Shown: one piece after another, positions 2,558 to 13,343 of the stretch
Numbering within the stretch: position 1 is the first letter of the stretch
Layout: each line of letters opens with the position of its first letter
Source: Deltaproteobacteria bacterium
GTDB lineage: Bacteria; Desulfobacterota; Binatia; JACPRU01
Direction of reading: 5' to 3'
DNA length: 64,000 nt
Assembly (NCBI GenBank): GCA_016189835.1
Contig: JACPRU010000063.1
Coordinates: forward strand, 1-64,000
Position numbers and translations under genes: made by a program
The notes under the pieces: model-generated
Database searches by the model: none
Told to the model about the DNA's origin: nothing
Seen by the model: the letters and a program-made list of their open reading frames with translations, nothing else

Positions 2558-3625
2558 ATGATGTGGCACCACAAACTAGCCTCTCGCCGGAGATCACTGG
2601 CGATCACCGCCGCTCTGGCGATGGCGATCGCCGGCGTGGCCGCCTGTCACGGCGTCGCCCCGGCGCCGCCGCCGCGCGAAGGGTTCGCGATCACCGACAA
2701 GTTCTTCGACGTCAAGTCGCTCGGCAACGACTCCTTCCTGCTGCTCGGCTATCGCAGCCTGCTCGCCCGGTCCGACGACGGCGGAGCGACCTGGAAGCGG
2801 CTCGCGGCACCCACCCACCGCAACATGACCCGGCTCGCCTTCGTCGACGGCAAGCTGGGGTGGGGCGTCGGCCACGAGGGCATCATCTTCAAGACCGAGA
2901 GCGGCGGCGACGGCTGGAAGGAGCAGCAGAGCGGCACCAAGAACGCTCTGTTCGACCTGAGCGTCACCAGCCCGACGAGCGTCTGGGCTGCCGGCGACCT
3001 GTCCTCCGTCCTGCACACGACCGACGGCGGCGCCACGTGGTCGCTGCAGAAGGTGGAGATCTCCTCGATCGGCGTCCGCGAAGACATGACGCTGGCGGTC
3101 GGCGACCCGATCTTCTACTCGATCTCGTGCAGCGACGACAACAACTGCACCGTGGTCGGGGAATTCGGGCAGGTGCGCATGACCGCCGACGGCGGCAAGA
3201 CCTGGGGCGCCGGCCACGGGGGTCTGCTCGGCGTCAAGTATCGTGACGTGATGAGCATGCCGACGCTGCTCTGCGTGAGAGTTCGCGACGCGCAGCACGC
3301 GGTGGCCGTCGGCACCTACGGAGCGATCGCCTCGACCGAGGACGGCGTCAACTGGCGCTGGAACGACTCGCCGGTCGGCGCTCCGCTCTACGACATCCGC
3401 GCGCTGCCGGACGGCGACTACCTCGCCGTCGGCGCCAGCGGCGTGGTGCTGCGCGGCAACCCGACGAGCGGCTGGAAGGTGGTGGAGATGCCCCCGGGGG
3501 TATTCACCTGGATCGGGGCGTCCGATTTCGACGCGGCCGGGCACGGAGTGGCCGGGGGAGGACACGGCCTGGTCCTCACGACCAACGATTTCGGCAAGAA
3601 ATGGGAGTGGAAGGCCAATGGCTGA
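2558..3625 (+). CDS. YCF48/BNR-repeat lipoprotein
   Basis: Secreted lipoprotein of 355 residues with a beta-propeller fold of the YCF48/HCF136 type. The N-terminus has arginines, a hydrophobic core and a lipobox (GVAAC, Cys near residue 30). Repeated Asp-box-like motifs follow (DDGGATWKR, TDGGATWSL, ADGGKTWGA, EDGVNWRW). The ATG at 2558 has AGGAGG seven bases upstream. The gene overlaps the next one (RND permease) by 8 bases. YCF48-like proteins are known neighbours of this RND/MMPL permease type, where they are presumed periplasmic accessories; the substrate is unknown. It is not evidence of photosynthesis. Confidence 0.85.
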   Translation: MMWHHKLASRRRSLAITAALAMAIAGVAACHGVAPAPPPREGFAITDKFFDVKSLGNDSFLLLGYRSLLARSDDGGATWKRLAAPTHRNMTRLAFVDGKLGWGVGHEGIIFKTESGGDGWKEQQSGTKNALFDLSVTSPTSVWAAGDLSSVLHTTDGGATWSLQKVEISSIGVREDMTLAVGDPIFYSISCSDDNNCTVVGEFGQVRMTADGGKTWGAGHGGLLGVKYRDVMSMPTLLCVRVRDAQHAVAVGTYGAIASTEDGVNWRWNDSPVGAPLYDIRALPDGDYLAVGASGVVLRGNPTSGWKVVEMPPGVFTWIGASDFDAAGHGVAGGGHGLVLTTNDFGKKWEWKANG

Positions 3626-6032
3626 GACCAACGATAATCTCATCGTCCATCAGGAGAAGGCGGCGCTCTACCGCCTCGGCCAGTGGCTGATCGACCACCG
3701 CAAGATGGTGGCCGGCCTGACTTACGGCTTCACGGCGCTGATGCTCTTCTACACCGTGAAAATCGAGATGTTCACCGAGTTCGGCGACCTGCTGCCCTAC
3801 CGCCATCCGTTCGTGCAGGTGCACACCAAGTTCGCCAACCAGTTCGGCGGCGCGAACAACATCACGATCATGGTCGAGGTGAAGAACGGCACGATCTTCA
3901 ACGTCGACACCTTGAGCAAGATCTACAAGATGACGCAGGTCATCGACGTCCTGCCCGGCATCAACCACGACCAGATCGACTCGATCGGCCACCGCTCGAC
4001 GCGCTACCTGACGATGCAGGGCGGCTCGATCGCCACGCCGCCGGTCATGCGCCGCCCGCCGTCCTCCGACAGGGACGTGAACGAGATCCGCAACATCGTC
4101 CACTACTCGGAGAACATTCACGGCATCCTGGTCTCGCTCGACGACAAGGCCGCGCTGATCCGCGCGAACTTCTTCGAGGGGCGGGTCAACTACCGCCAGC
4201 TCTTCTACGACGTCAACGACAAGATCATCAAACCGTTCCAGGACGACAACACGGTCCTCTGGGTGGCCGGCGAGCCGCGCCTCTACGGGTGGATTTACCA
4301 CTACACGGGCGAGGTCTGGTACATCTTCGGCGGCTGCACGGCGTTCATGTGGATCCTGCTCTACCTGTACTTCCACGACTGGCGCGGCTCGCTGCGGCCG
4401 ACGCTGACCGGCATGATCTCGGCGATCTGGGGCCTCGGCGTGGTCCATATGATCGGCTTCCCGATGGACCCGCTGTCGCTGGTGATCCCGTTCTTCGTCA
4501 CCGCGCGGGCGGTCAGCCACTCGGTGCAGATGCACGAGCGCTACTACGAGGAGTACCACCGCCACAACTGGAACAAGGTGCAGGCGATCGTCGCGGCGTT
4601 CGCCGAGCTGTTCGAGCCGACGCTCTCGGGCATCGTCACCGACGCGCTCGGCATGCTGGTGATCGTGCTCGTCCCGGTGGTGATCCTGCAGCGCATCGCC
4701 ATCTCCGCCTCGATCTGGGTGGCGGCGATCGTGCTCTCCGAGCTGATCCTCAACCCGATCATCTACTACTACCTGAAGGCTCCGGAGAAGGAGAACGTGC
4801 TGGGCCGTGAGGAAGGGCCCTTCCAGCGCCTCATCACCTGGTGGAGCCACGTCGTGGTCGGCCCCAGGGCGCGCTGGGTCGCGCTCGGCTTCTGGGTGGG
4901 GGCGTTCCTGCTCGCCGCCACCCAGGTGCAGCACATCACCATCGGCGACGCGACGACCTCCACGCCGCTCCTCCAGCCCGACTCGCCGTACAACAACGCG
5001 CACATGCGCATCCAGAAGTTCTTCGGCGGCGTCGAGCCGCTGATCATCGTCATCGAGGGCAAGGAGAAGGGCGCTCTCAAGGATCCGCAGTCGATCGAGG
5101 CGATGGAGGCGTTCCAGCGCTACGTCGACAGCGATCCCGAGGTCGGCTACAGCTTCTCGCTCGCCGACATCGTGAAATCGATCAACATGGTGTTCTACGA
5201 CACCCAGCCGCGCTGGGGCGTGATCCCCGAGGAGATCGGCCGCATCGCCAACCTGTTCTTCTTCTACTTCGCCGGCTCGCCGCCGTCGGAGACCTCGAAG
5301 TACCTCGACCCCTCGTACACCAACGCCCACGTCACGTTCTTCTGCCGCAACCACCAGGGCGACACCGTGGCGCGAATCATCGAGCGCTGCCGCGAGTACG
5401 TGGCGAAGTTCCCGGCCGCCAAGATCGACTTCCGCCTCGCCGGCGGTCTGATCGGCGTCACCGCGGCCGCCAACGAGGAGATCCTCAAGAACGACATCTT
5501 GATGAACGTGCTCGGCTTCGGGACGATCTGGTTCGTCCTGCTGTTCACCTACCGGTCGTTCGTGGCCGGCATCATGATGCTGATCCCGCTGTTCCTCGCC
5601 AACGGCGTGATCAACGCCTACATCGGCTTCAACCACCTCGGCATCAACCTGCAGTCGCTCCCCGTGGTGACCGTGGGTGTCGGCTTCGGCATCGACTACG
5701 GCCTGTACATCGTCAGCCGCGCGATCGAGGAGTACCGCGACCACCTCGACTTCGAGAAGGCGGTGCAGCGCGGCATGCAGACCGCCGGCAAGGCGGTGAC
5801 CTTCACCGCGGTGTCGCTGTCGGTCGCCACGCTGGCCTGGGCGTTCTCCGACATCCGCTTCAATTCGGACATGGGACTGCTGCTGTTCCTGTGGATGATG
5901 ATCAGCTTCATGTCGACGATGTCGTTGCTGCCAGCGCTGATGGTGATCATGAGGCCGAAGTTCATGACCCTGCTCGTCAAGCCCGCACAGGCGGCGAAGG
6001 CCGAGCAGGCCGTGGCCACCGGAACATCTTGA
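3618..6032 (+). CDS. RND/MMPL-family permease, copy 1
   Basis: Inner-membrane transporter of 804 residues. The layout is typical of the half-size RND/MMPL class: one membrane helix near residues 30-50, a periplasmic domain (about 50-230), a block of about five helices (230-385), one helix (about 415-440), a second periplasmic domain (445-615), and a final helix block (620-790). The family signature GVGFGIDYGLYIVSR is near the last block. It is clearly paralogous to the permease at 10995: both share FGGAN, AGEPRLYGW, FRLAGGLIGV(T/L)AAANEE and AGKAVTFTA(V/L). It overlaps the YCF48 gene, so the two form one unit. The cargo is probably a lipid or other hydrophobic molecule (inference from the family). 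Confidence 0.9.
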   Translation: MAETNDNLIVHQEKAALYRLGQWLIDHRKMVAGLTYGFTALMLFYTVKIEMFTEFGDLLPYRHPFVQVHTKFANQFGGANNITIMVEVKNGTIFNVDTLSKIYKMTQVIDVLPGINHDQIDSIGHRSTRYLTMQGGSIATPPVMRRPPSSDRDVNEIRNIVHYSENIHGILVSLDDKAALIRANFFEGRVNYRQLFYDVNDKIIKPFQDDNTVLWVAGEPRLYGWIYHYTGEVWYIFGGCTAFMWILLYLYFHDWRGSLRPTLTGMISAIWGLGVVHMIGFPMDPLSLVIPFFVTARAVSHSVQMHERYYEEYHRHNWNKVQAIVAAFAELFEPTLSGIVTDALGMLVIVLVPVVILQRIAISASIWVAAIVLSELILNPIIYYYLKAPEKENVLGREEGPFQRLITWWSHVVVGPRARWVALGFWVGAFLLAATQVQHITIGDATTSTPLLQPDSPYNNAHMRIQKFFGGVEPLIIVIEGKEKGALKDPQSIEAMEAFQRYVDSDPEVGYSFSLADIVKSINMVFYDTQPRWGVIPEEIGRIANLFFFYFAGSPPSETSKYLDPSYTNAHVTFFCRNHQGDTVARIIERCREYVAKFPAAKIDFRLAGGLIGVTAAANEEILKNDILMNVLGFGTIWFVLLFTYRSFVAGIMMLIPLFLANGVINAYIGFNHLGINLQSLPVVTVGVGFGIDYGLYIVSRAIEEYRDHLDFEKAVQRGMQTAGKAVTFTAVSLSVATLAWAFSDIRFNSDMGLLLFLWMMISFMSTMSLLPALMVIMRPKFMTLLVKPAQAAKAEQAVATGTS

Positions 6033-6853
6033 TCCGCGCGGGGGGACGTTCTTCTGCTTGGAGACAAAGGAGAAGAACGTCCCCCCTCTATTTTTGTCTT
6101 GTCGTACTCTCGTGCACCGCGGCGACGAGCGGGCGCCACCCGGCGCCGATCGCCGCCGACGCGCGGATTCCCGTCGAGTCCTATTTTCCGCTCACCGAGC
6201 GCAGCCAGTGGAGTTATCGGGTCCAGGACTTCGTCAAGCAACTGACCTACCAGGCGAGGGTCAGGGTTTACGGCGAGCAGTACGTCGAGGCGCTGAACCG
6301 CTACGGCATCGCCGTCGAGGAGCGCTATTCGAGCTTCGGTCCCGCCGGCCCGTACGTTCTCGAGGAGCAGGAGCCGATCCTATACTTCCGGGAGAACGGC
6401 TATCTGAACCGCGTGCTGCTCACCTACCAGGCGGGAAGGGTGATCGCCGCCAGCGGCTCGGGCGACACGCAGTTCCTGCCGGAGATCCTGCGCGAGGGAG
6501 CCTCCTGGGACAGCAACACGCAGGCGTTCCGCGTCGGCGATCTCGGCTTCCAGGTGAGCTTCCGCCATACCGCGTCGATCGAGCGCGAGACCATCCGGGT
6601 GCCGGCCGGCGCGTTCGACAACTGCGTGCGCGTCGACACCCACTCCACCGAGGGGCCGAACTCGGGTTACGGGCCCGGCGAGGAGCTGGTGTTCTACTAC
6701 TCCGACTGGTACGCGCCGGAAGTCGGGCTGGTGCTCACGAGGCAGTGGGACGACGCGCAGCGCCAGCGCGAGCGGACGCGGATCGAGCTGATCGGCTACG
6801 CAGTCACCCCGGCCGCTCCGGCCGGGGCCGATTCGGGAACCGCCAGGGATTGA
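6029..6853 (+). CDS. Putative lipoprotein; start region overlaps a palindrome
   Basis: Unrecognised secreted protein, about 274 residues. The only usable in-frame start before the conserved body is a TTG at 6029 that overlaps the permease stop as TTGA. Read this way, the N-terminus is arginine-rich (AWRQRRRTSP), then hydrophobic with a lipobox-like VVLSC. The body from about residue 45 is acidic and beta-rich (PLTERSQWSYRV, VPAGAFDNCVRVDTH, YYSDWYAPEVGLV), a style seen in outer-membrane or periplasmic accessory lipoproteins. The stretch encoding the signal peptide coincides with the 6041-6096 palindrome and its T-rich tail, so the true start is uncertain and may have been remodelled. It is probably co-transcribed with the RND permease unless the palindrome terminates transcription. 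Confidence 0.65.
   Translation: MIRAGGRSSAWRQRRRTSPLYFCLVVLSCTAATSGRHPAPIAADARIPVESYFPLTERSQWSYRVQDFVKQLTYQARVRVYGEQYVEALNRYGIAVEERYSSFGPAGPYVLEEQEPILYFRENGYLNRVLLTYQAGRVIAASGSGDTQFLPEILREGASWDSNTQAFRVGDLGFQVSFRHTASIERETIRVPAGAFDNCVRVDTHSTEGPNSGYGPGEELVFYYSDWYAPEVGLVLTRQWDDAQRQRERTRIELIGYAVTPAAPAGADSGTARD
6041..6096 (+). repeat. Perfect 15-bp inverted repeat with T-tail (REP-like or terminator)
   Basis: Arms 6041-6055 and 6071-6085 (GGGGGACGTTCTTCT and its complement) match perfectly around a 15-base loop and are followed by a TATTTTTG tail. As RNA it has the form of a Rho-independent terminator after the RND permease. The GGGG foot and long palindrome also resemble REP units moved by Y1 transposases (inference). 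It overlaps the presumed signal-peptide coding region of the next gene. Confidence 0.8.
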
Positions 6854-6881
6854 GCCGCGGCGCCGTGGTGCGCCACCCTTC

Positions 6882-7193
6882 TCAATGCGCGCCCGCGCTC
6901 CCGGGTGCGGCCGCGGCGGCCGCCTGGGTCGCGGCCTCGAGCCTGCGCTGACAGCGGGCGAGCTCTTCCTGGGCCATCGTTCGCTGCGTCAGCGCGTTCT
7001 CCTTCTCGCCCGTTGCGTTCTGGATCTTCTGCCGCAGCTCGGCGGCCTCCACGCGCAGCAGCAGCGCGTCGCCCCAGAAGATGTAACCGAGAGCGATGCC
7101 GGCGCTCAGCGTCAGGGCGAGCAGCACGAACCAGCCGCCGTACGTCCACACCGCCTCCTTGATCTGGCCCTCGGCACTCTTGGTTTCGCTCAT
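6882..7193 (-). CDS. Small membrane-anchored coiled-coil protein
   Basis: Protein of 103 residues on the minus strand between two plus-strand lipoprotein genes. It has one membrane helix at about residues 20-42 (WFVLLALTLSAGIALGYIFW) followed by a heptad-like helix (VEAAELRQKIQNATGEKE) and an alanine-rich tail. The ATG at 7193 is preceded by AGGAGG five bases away, a strong ribosome site that supports a real gene. No domain was recognised. The coiled coil probably faces the periplasm or cytoplasm and may mediate oligomerisation; function is unknown. Confidence 0.75.
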   Translation of the reverse strand: MSETKSAEGQIKEAVWTYGGWFVLLALTLSAGIALGYIFWGDALLLRVEAAELRQKIQNATGEKENALTQRTMAQEELARCQRRLEAATQAAAAAAPGSAGAH

Positions 7194-7324
7194 GTCGGTC
7201 CTCCTGGCGGATCTGGAAAGCGCAGCACCATACGAGACGAAGCGAGATTGTCAACAATCCCGCAGGGCGCGCCCGTCTCTTGCCAAACGAAACGCATCTG
7301 TTTTATCCGGGGTCGGCGCCGATC

Positions 7325-10998: not shown

Positions 10999-13343
10999 GC
11001 GAAAATCGATCCGAGGGACGGCTCGTTTCGCTGGGGCGGACGTTGATCCGTCATCGCGTGGCGGCGCTCGCGGTCGTCGGCGTCGTCACCGCGTTCTTCG
11101 GCTACCACGCGCTGCGCCTGCAGCTCCTCAGCCGCTTCGACGAGCTGCTGCCGGCCACCCACCCCTTCGTCGCCGTTCATCGCCAGTTCGCCAAGACCTT
11201 CGGCGGGGCGAACACCGTGCTGCTGATGCTGCGAGTGCGCCAGGGCGAGATCTTCACGGTGAAGACGCTGACCAAGATCTGGGGGATGACGGAGGAGCTC
11301 GACAAGATCTACGGCGTCAACCACTACCAGATCGAGTCGCTCGCGCACCGCACGAACCGCACGCTGCGCGTCTCGGCCGGCGGGCTCATGGAGATGCAGC
11401 CGGTGATGATGTCGGCCCCGAAGCGGGAGGCGGACGTGGACACCGTGCGGCGCATCGTGCACGCCTCGCAGAATCTGTACGGCGTCCTGGTCTCGATCGA
11501 CAACCGCGCCGCGCTCATCCGCGCGAGCTTCATCGAGGGCATCATCGATCACCGCAAGCTGTTCGACGAGATCCAGAACCGCGTCGTCGAGCCCTTTTCC
11601 GACGAGGAAACCGAGATCCTGGTGGCGGGCGAGCCGCGGCTCTACGGCTGGGTCTACCAGTACGCCCATCAGGTGTACTGGATCCTCGCCGCCACCGCGG
11701 CGCTCGCCTGGATCCTGCTCTACCTCTACTTCCGCGACTGGAAGGGGGCGCTGCGGCCGACGATCTCGGGAGTGATCGCCGCGGTCTGGGGGCTCGGCTT
11801 CATCCACGTGATCGGTTTCTCGCTCGACCCGCTGACGCTGGTGATCCCCTTCTTCATCACCGCGCGCGCGGTCAGTCACTCGGCGCAGATGCACGAGCGC
11901 TACTACGAGGAATACCGCCTGTGCGGCTGGCGGCAGGAGGAGGCCATCATCCGCTCGTTCGCGGCGCTGTTCGTGCCGACGCTGTCCGGCATCCTCACCG
12001 ACGCGCTCGGCATCCTGGCGATCCTGGTGGTGCCGATCGTGCTGCTGCAGAAGCTCGCGCTCACCGCGTCGTTCTGGATCGCCGCGATCGTCGTCAGCGA
12101 GCTGTTCTTGAATCCGGTCGTCTACTCGTACCTGAGCCCCCCCGAGCGCGGGATGGTCGAGGCGCGCGAGCGCGGCGCGTTCCAGCGCTGGATCAACGCC
12201 GCGGCGGCGGCCGTGGTGTCGCCGACCGGGCGGCGCCTGAGCTTCGCCGTCTGGGGGCTGGTCATGATCGCGAGCCCGATCTTCTGGACCCGGCTGGTGG
12301 TCGGCGACTCCGAGGCCGTGACGCCGCTGCTGCGCCGCGACTCCGCCTACAACTTCGCGCACAAGGAGATCCAGGAGGAGTTCGGCGGCATCGAGCCGCT
12401 CATCATCGTCGTCGAGGCGCTGAAGCCCGGGTCGATGCGCACCCCCCACAACGTCAAGACGTTCGAGAAATTCCAGCGCTTCCTCGAGCGCGACCCCGAC
12501 GTCGGCGCGAGCTTCTCGTTCGTCGACGTGATCACCACGATGGGCTCCTTCGTCCACGAGGGGGATCCCAAATGGGCGGTGGTGCCGACCGAGGCGACTT
12601 CGGTGAGCTTCCTGTTCGGCGCCTTCTTTCAGGGCACCTCCTACGCCGAGACCGCGCGCTTCATGGACCCGAACTTCAGCAACACCGCGCTCTTCTTCTA
12701 CTGCAAGAACCACCGCGGGCCGACCATCCGCCGCATCATCGCCCGCGCGCAGCAGTTCATCGCCGAGAATCCCCTCGAGGACGCTCAGTTCCGCCTCGCC
12801 GGCGGCTTGATCGGCGTGCTCGCCGCGGCCAACGAGGAGATGGTGCGCAACGACGTCACGCTGAACGTCGTGGGTTACGTGACGATCTTCGTCGTCGTCT
12901 GTCTGACCTACGGGTCGTTCGTCGCGGGCCTGGTCATGATCGTCCCGCTGCTCGTCGCCAACGAGGTCGTGAACGCCTACATGGGGCTGCGCGGCATCGG
13001 CATCAACGTTCAGACGCTGCCGGTGATCACGGTCGGAGTCGGGTTCGGCATCGACTTCGCGTTCTACGTGGTGAGCCGCGTGCGCGAGAGTCTCGGGACG
13101 GTCGGCTCCGTGGCGGCGGCGACGGAGCATGCGCTGCGCACGGCGGGAAAGGCGGTGACGTTCACCGCGCTGACGATGATCGCCGGCATCCTGTTCTGGA
13201 ATTTCTCCGACATCCGCTTCAACGCGGAGATGGGGCTGCTGCTGGCGTTGTGGATGGCGGTGAGCTTTCTGGCGAGCATGACGCTGCTGCCGGCATTCCT
13301 GGTGGCGCTGTCGCCGAAGTTTCTCGGCCGCGGTCGCTCGTAA
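10995..13343 (+). CDS. RND/MMPL-family permease, copy 2
   Basis: Inner-membrane transporter of 782 residues with the same helix and domain layout as the permease at 3618. It keeps FGGANTVLLML, AGEPRLYGWVYQY, HSAQMHERYYEEYR and GVGFGIDFAFYVVSR. By eye roughly half the residues match the first copy, so the two are old paralogues rather than a recent duplication. It overlaps the upstream fusion gene by ATGA. Copy 1 has a YCF48 partner; this copy has the spermidine-synthase/TPR protein instead, which suggests different cargo or partner specificity (inference). Confidence 0.9.
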   Translation: MSENRSEGRLVSLGRTLIRHRVAALAVVGVVTAFFGYHALRLQLLSRFDELLPATHPFVAVHRQFAKTFGGANTVLLMLRVRQGEIFTVKTLTKIWGMTEELDKIYGVNHYQIESLAHRTNRTLRVSAGGLMEMQPVMMSAPKREADVDTVRRIVHASQNLYGVLVSIDNRAALIRASFIEGIIDHRKLFDEIQNRVVEPFSDEETEILVAGEPRLYGWVYQYAHQVYWILAATAALAWILLYLYFRDWKGALRPTISGVIAAVWGLGFIHVIGFSLDPLTLVIPFFITARAVSHSAQMHERYYEEYRLCGWRQEEAIIRSFAALFVPTLSGILTDALGILAILVVPIVLLQKLALTASFWIAAIVVSELFLNPVVYSYLSPPERGMVEARERGAFQRWINAAAAAVVSPTGRRLSFAVWGLVMIASPIFWTRLVVGDSEAVTPLLRRDSAYNFAHKEIQEEFGGIEPLIIVVEALKPGSMRTPHNVKTFEKFQRFLERDPDVGASFSFVDVITTMGSFVHEGDPKWAVVPTEATSVSFLFGAFFQGTSYAETARFMDPNFSNTALFFYCKNHRGPTIRRIIARAQQFIAENPLEDAQFRLAGGLIGVLAAANEEMVRNDVTLNVVGYVTIFVVVCLTYGSFVAGLVMIVPLLVANEVVNAYMGLRGIGINVQTLPVITVGVGFGIDFAFYVVSRVRESLGTVGSVAAATEHALRTAGKAVTFTALTMIAGILFWNFSDIRFNAEMGLLLALWMAVSFLASMTLLPAFLVALSPKFLGRGRS

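Follow-up and report, generated by a model that had tools for sequence, protein, structure and literature searches.

Introduction

Passages of Di Nocera et al. (2013, PMC3733652) describe TIRtron/TIRYT elements, in which a Y1/RAYT-type transposase gene lies within long inverted repeats and which are accompanied by scattered, gene-less paired copies. The same passages place some repetitive extragenic palindromes (REPs) at NH2-termini, with the caution that many may be extragenic and that translation may begin downstream of them. As this and two further papers (PMC3116915, PMC10969869) show, elements of the REP or terminal inverted repeat (TIR) type belonging to Y1 transposases, as well as palindromes read into proteins, are already known. 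Here we analyse a palindrome at positions 6040-6086 of a 64,000-nucleotide stretch from a Deltaproteobacteria bacterium (GenBank assembly GCA_016189835.1, contig JACPRU010000063.1, positions 1 to 64,000; the whole stretch is called the window), where it lies between the gene of an MMPL/RND-type permease and that of a predicted lipoprotein. Sequence comparisons make it likely, with good confidence, that this palindrome is a shortened, non-autonomous copy of a TIR element moved by Y1/RAYT transposases and that the original start of the lipoprotein gene has been lost.

Results

The palindrome occupies the start region of a predicted lipoprotein gene

A sequence-only reading of this DNA had noted a 15-bp palindrome at the gene start. 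The palindrome is present and its arms are longer: they comprise 20 nt each (6040-6059 and 6067-6086), are complementary at 19/20 positions (95%) and enclose a 7-nt spacer; the arm reads GGGGACGT. Folding of the region 6026-6112 gave -37.8 kcal/mol (z -4.3) for RNA and a z of -5.6 for DNA, and in either case none of 200 shuffled sequences equalled the value. Upstream, the plus-strand open reading frame (ORF) of the permease (3618-6032, 804 residues, identified by its relatives and a Pfam MMPL match at 4.9e-25) ends with the TGA at 6030-6032, 7 nt ahead of the palindrome. This stop overlaps, as TTGA, the TTG at 6029-6031, the sole ATG, GTG or TTG in frame close before the lipobox of the downstream gene; no other occurs between it and the lipobox Cys, and the next one, GTG 6413, lies deep in the mature protein.

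Translated from TTG 6029, the product begins MIRAGGRSSAWRQRRRTSPLYFCLVVLSC and has the lipobox Cys at residue 29. Fifteen of these residues, GGRSSAWRQRRRTSP, derive from 45 nt of palindrome (6041-6085), a multiple of three, and would form an Arg-rich n-region. The T-rich stretch that follows (6086-6115), with a GC content of 43% versus 71% for the window, codes in the same frame, as the sequence-only reading had stated, for LYFCLVVLSC, a hydrophobic core and lipobox Cys. The remainder of the predicted lipoprotein (6116-6853, plus strand) has distant homologues in the class and a DUF3108-like match under the Pfam cut-off (20.9 vs 27 bits). The PROSITE-type lipoprotein rule asks for a Cys at positions 15-35, a Lys or Arg within the first seven residues and an uncharged core, and the product read from TTG 6029, with Cys 29 and two Arg among its first seven residues, agrees with it. 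After the signal peptide region, 245 codons remain open to the stop, with 86% GC at third positions (96% in the MMPL gene). A second frame, from TTG 6058 (METKEKNVPPLFLSC...), was set aside as it differs from that of the lipoprotein.

The search for homologues of the lipoprotein succeeded in 32 of 98 genomes, its own included; identities reached no more than 40%, and 40 matches lie outside the own genome. We examined the starts of 32 homologous ORFs in 29 loci, taking the nearest start codon, and the resulting distances are minimum values. A Cys stands at the lipobox site in 16 of the 32; 13 of these conform to the strict rule and three do not. In all 13 a start codon (ATG in 12, GTG in one) puts the Cys at residue 15-24. 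The nearer homologues thus begin some 20 residues before the Cys, where the window has the palindrome. The sequence to the right of the palindrome matches the homologues, and the four codons to its left cannot be aligned with them. The T-rich stretch lies outside the repeat and its Cys fits the position seen in the nearer homologues, so both the core and the lipobox are apparently original parts of the gene.

A search of GTDB contigs with the MMPL protein returned five loci with 55-64% identity; none of them shows a lipoprotein homologue by tblastn in the DNA available, which extends no more than 4 kb beyond the matched region. The MMPL paralogue in the own genome (L111, 66% identical) is followed by an opposite-strand dehydrogenase-like ORF (by eye) and not by a lipoprotein gene. 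In one genome, G028 (locus L023), a lipoprotein homologue with an ATG start follows an MMPL gene whose last part is 58% identical, and two small ORFs separate them. Between the two genes of the window there is no space for such ORFs; this would fit a loss of DNA at the junction, although the two neighbourhoods are distant ones. By eye, L023 and the own paralogue have MMPL C-termini similar to the one beside the palindrome. A second MMPL-type gene lies in the window at 11007-13328; it shares 48% identity with that at 3618.

The palindrome belongs to a repeat family dispersed in its own genome

The draft of the own genome (2.61 Mb, about 75% complete) comprises 87 contigs. It contains 19 exact copies of the 11-nt arm tip GGGACGTTCTT and none of the reversed control. 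Of the 19 tips, 17 continue into a longer common arm, approximately GGGACGTTCTTC[A/T/G]C[T/C]TT[C/T]GTC[A/T/G]CCTT, the left arm of the window doing so only in part. The two lone tips, on contigs C50 (L016) and C75 (L020), were dismissed as chance occurrences whose match stops after the tip. With a profile built from 16 arms, which match by construction and include the right arm of the window, 17 arms were recovered at E<=1.9e-5 on nine contigs; the one arm new to this search was C19:9906-9929. The family has eight compact inverted pairs, the window palindrome and seven others that span 69-142 nt, and the arms on C43 and at C19:10705 are unpaired.

Within the window the tip by itself is ordinary: two matches with at most one mismatch were found against 0.63 expected, a number reached in 11 of 100 shuffles. 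What gives the palindrome weight is that its arms are paired and that copies exist at other places in the genome. A 17-position pattern allowing up to three mismatches hit four places in the window (1.2 expected); two are the palindrome itself and the other two carry three mismatches, which leaves no further copy there. The right arm of the window gave a full family match over 25 positions (6059-6083, 29.1 bits, E 3.0e-6). On the left only 6043-6055 matched (E 0.94), in line with the first 13 positions of the longer arm; since the right arm is complete and the left one a 13-nt stump, much of the left arm and the loop appears to be gone from the window copy.

When left and right arms were compared over their first 25 nt, each left arm was closer to its own partner than to the mean of the other right arms in 8/8 pairs, and closer than to every other right arm in three of the eight only (L011, L014 and L018); for L012, this comparison used the lone arm C19:10705 and not the true partner identified later. 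The window pair, alike at 19/25 positions, merely ties with the best other right arm. The T-run after the right arm of the window is absent behind the arms of the other copies, which rules out the T-rich tail as part of the repeat; moderately T-rich ends were seen elsewhere at the left of L019 (TTCTCCC) and, further out, at the left of L012 (TTTT). The ends of the element are ambiguous by up to 3 G/C per side.

The 11-nt tip flanks Y1/RAYT-type transposase genes in three further genomes

Of 395 phylum genomes searched for paired tips, four gave matches, the own genome and three genomes of one other family, G209, G296 and G460. These hold 13, 8 and 22 inverted tip pairs respectively, with none in the control. 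In each of the three, one Y1_Tnp (PF01797) gene was found between inverted tip copies about 1 kb apart, and these elements (loci L113 in G209, L115 in G296 and L112 in G460) consist of a Y1/RAYT-type transposase gene between GGGACGTTCTT repeats. The suggestion of the sequence-only reading that the palindrome is mobile agrees both with these elements and with the dispersed copies described above. A relative from the same class, G026, has an element of the same build, a Y1_Tnp gene between repeats with a related tip starting GGGGACGTTGGTTAGTC. Of 58 genomes, 25, counting the own one, contain the 12-nt tip GGGGACGTTCTT at least once; elsewhere than in the own genome it is infrequent, with no more than seven copies per genome, and the reversed control also matched in several genomes, which makes its occurrence there weak evidence.

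Among other collections, the plasmid records held no match to the 47-nt palindrome. The single Rfam match for 5500-7300 up to E 1 was a microRNA family, at 22.6 against a gathering score of 97 bits. One IMG/VR stretch with the paired-tip pattern was rejected as being, by eye, a chance arrangement in coding-like DNA. In the own genome, the only Y1_Tnp gene is surrounded by an inverted repeat of another sequence, AAAAGGGGTCGGGAGTCTTTT, with more copies nearby, probably a second repeat family in this genome.

Another copy occupies a start-codon position

The copy on contig C22 (L013 1005-1146; C22:41505-41644) precedes a gene of family PF01212 (1.4e-107), which from this family we take to encode threonine aldolase. 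Of 38 genomes, 21 gave matches to it, the own one among them, and 11 of the 20 others were compared. In 9/11 relatives the start codon stands directly before the conserved IDLRSD, and in 2/11 three codons before it. At these positions the own genome has the element, reading GTG AAG AAC GTC CCC and then ATC GAC CTG; the copy thus occupies the place of the start codon. The arm contains AGGTGA, a possible ribosome-binding site, 5 nt before the in-frame GTG, and this GTG could serve as start codon.

At other copies, inspected by eye, a RarA-type AAA ATPase gene (L012 1012-1133) and a tetrapyrrole-methylase-family gene (L011 1020-1090) each end within an arm, which provides their C-terminal codons and stop, and one copy stops 4 nt before the ATG of an ABC-type gene.

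Terminator-like character is confined to the window copy

The sequence-only reading had also likened the palindrome to a terminator of the permease gene. This likeness stood in one respect and not in another: the plus-strand hairpin with its tail scored +6.0 by a literature formula, and a terminator scan did not list that hairpin, reporting in its place a shorter one on the minus strand (6088-6070). All other 15 ends of the eight compact copies scored negative, at -11.9 or lower, on a scale that divides by element length and so puts longer copies at a disadvantage. Termination at the site is plausible from its sequence and would be a property of this junction, not of the repeat family. If efficient, it would oppose expression of the lipoprotein, an effect that translation continuing from the MMPL gene could counter.

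Discussion

The events that we propose would begin with insertion of the element at the junction of the MMPL and lipoprotein genes and its partial deletion there. The original start codon and n-region of the lipoprotein would thereby have gone, leaving the protein's own core and lipobox directly behind the element. Less certainly, the lipoprotein may still be translated by termination-reinitiation at TTG 6029 and through the palindrome, which would then provide a chimeric signal peptide with its Arg-rich n-region; at the same time, transcription from one gene to the next might be partly terminated or attenuated by the hairpin and T-rich stretch. The earlier proposal that the palindrome supplies the signal peptide has to be narrowed accordingly in scope: at most a positively charged n-region would come from the repeat, the lipobox and core lying outside it, although the palindrome does sit where the lipoprotein start should be. 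We give a functional chimeric signal peptide somewhat less than an even chance. We are more confident of the element's identity, and of the usual start region having been lost, than of any answer to whether the new start is used or damaged.

The latter alternative, that the element removed the start and left the lipoprotein gene silent or a young pseudogene, competes with the chimeric signal peptide only, and it too is a realistic outcome that falls a little short of an even chance. It would explain why there is neither a usual start nor an evident Shine-Dalgarno (SD) sequence near the signal peptide, why a stable hairpin and T-run precede the gene and why 6086-6115 departs so far from the base composition of the window; yet the 245 open codons with their GC-rich third positions, and an in-frame TTG from which the lipoprotein rule holds, speak against it. 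A gentler event is conceivable, an in-frame insertion within an existing signal peptide in the style of the Rickettsia palindromes, with TTG-Ile-Arg-Ala and LYFCLVVLSC both native and nothing but the length changed. The divisibility by three of the palindrome-coded part and the familiar look of the neighbouring MMPL C-terminus would suit it, but without the 15 residues the Cys would fall at position 14, below all 13 scored homologues (15-24, themselves minimum distances), and the element ends are ambiguous by up to 3 G/C per side; we consider this course improbable.

We regard it as highly unlikely that the structure is a dedicated intrinsic terminator of the MMPL gene whose likeness to the repeat family is incidental. 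Its hairpin of -37.8 kcal/mol is followed by a U-rich tail and it has the sole positive score among the 16 ends of the compact copies, where long spacers penalise the longer ones; however, its 25-nt right arm fits the dispersed family (E 3.0e-6, the arm being one of the 16 profile rows), similar hairpins elsewhere in the genome lack such a tail, and the tail encodes the lipobox region of the lipoprotein, for which homologues exist. A further reading is an assembly artefact, contigs having been joined at a repeated palindrome. A draft in 87 contigs with family copies on nine of them leaves room for such an error, but in G028 an MMPL gene and a lipoprotein homologue also lie close together, which makes the join plausible biology, and we attach very little weight to a misassembly. 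A more ambitious possibility, which we consider rather unlikely, is that the element is a portable gene start that lands on the 5' ends of genes and replaces a native start codon, its outward arm giving translation signals and N-terminal residues. At the threonine aldolase an A-type arm would provide AGGTGA followed by GTG, for a product MKNVP-IDLRSD; at the lipoprotein a T-type arm would provide the Arg-rich n-region on a native core, with the hairpin tuning read-through.

Several observations count against the interpretation favoured here, a shortened TIR copy that displaced the lipoprotein start and may now contribute to its signal peptide. The palindrome is open in 6/6 frames (mean 3.6 for shuffled versions), and because it is open in all six, its open frame is no evidence of use or selection. 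No strong SD sequence precedes TTG 6029 (by eye). Fifteen of the 32 homologous ORFs are without the lipobox Cys, and one further match is partial. An empty site was not found, all 97 relatives returned being labelled as same class only. As for the transposase, no Y1/RAYT gene bounded by a palindrome arm was detected in the own genome, in its roughly 75% complete state, and the sole Y1_Tnp match there (L021 728-1603, contig C14) carries a different terminal repeat. The inner arm sequences are unlike those of G209, G296 and G460, and under stricter filters the arm profile matched 0/147 other genomes of the class.

Small palindromes usually lie between genes. Two copies of this family replace gene starts, where they must either cripple the gene or become a part of it, and both outcomes are directly testable. 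The titles and abstract openings of the literature surveyed contain nothing on a REP or miniature inverted-repeat transposable element (MITE) palindrome that replaces a start codon or forms a signal peptide, which is no proof of absence.

Among known systems, TIRtron/TIRYT elements, as passages of Di Nocera et al. (2013, PMC3733652) describe them, come closest: they share with this family the gene-less pairs and the copies near gene ends, and the elements of G209, G296 and G460, with their transposase gene between inverted repeats, have the TIRtron build. The own arm GGGGACGT, however, does not fit GGGGWSAS, given in those passages as a motif of some TIRs, and no transposase with the palindrome arm was found in the own genome. 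With REPINs, as described in PMC3116915, the palindrome has in common two inverted arms with a spacer, a non-autonomous nature and a presumed movement by RAYTs. It differs in lacking the unpaired GTAG tag and in its few copies (17 arms); by eye, no terminal GTAG is common to the copies, and CGTC lies inside the paired stem. Like Rho-independent terminators, the window copy has a strong hairpin followed by a U-rich tract, but a terminator score is reached by only 1/8 compact copies, the one in the window, owing to the T-rich DNA that follows it. Rickettsia palindromic elements and NH2-terminal intragenic REPs, in the sections of PMC10969869 and PMC3733652 that treat them, are likewise palindromes readable in a host protein, sometimes at its N-terminus; the known in-frame type has native sequence on both sides, whereas here the element replaces the start region at two genes. 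The case also departs from the caution of Di Nocera et al. that translation may begin downstream, in that no usual start lies downstream of the palindrome and ahead of the lipobox, and at both genes the homologues reveal the part that is missing.

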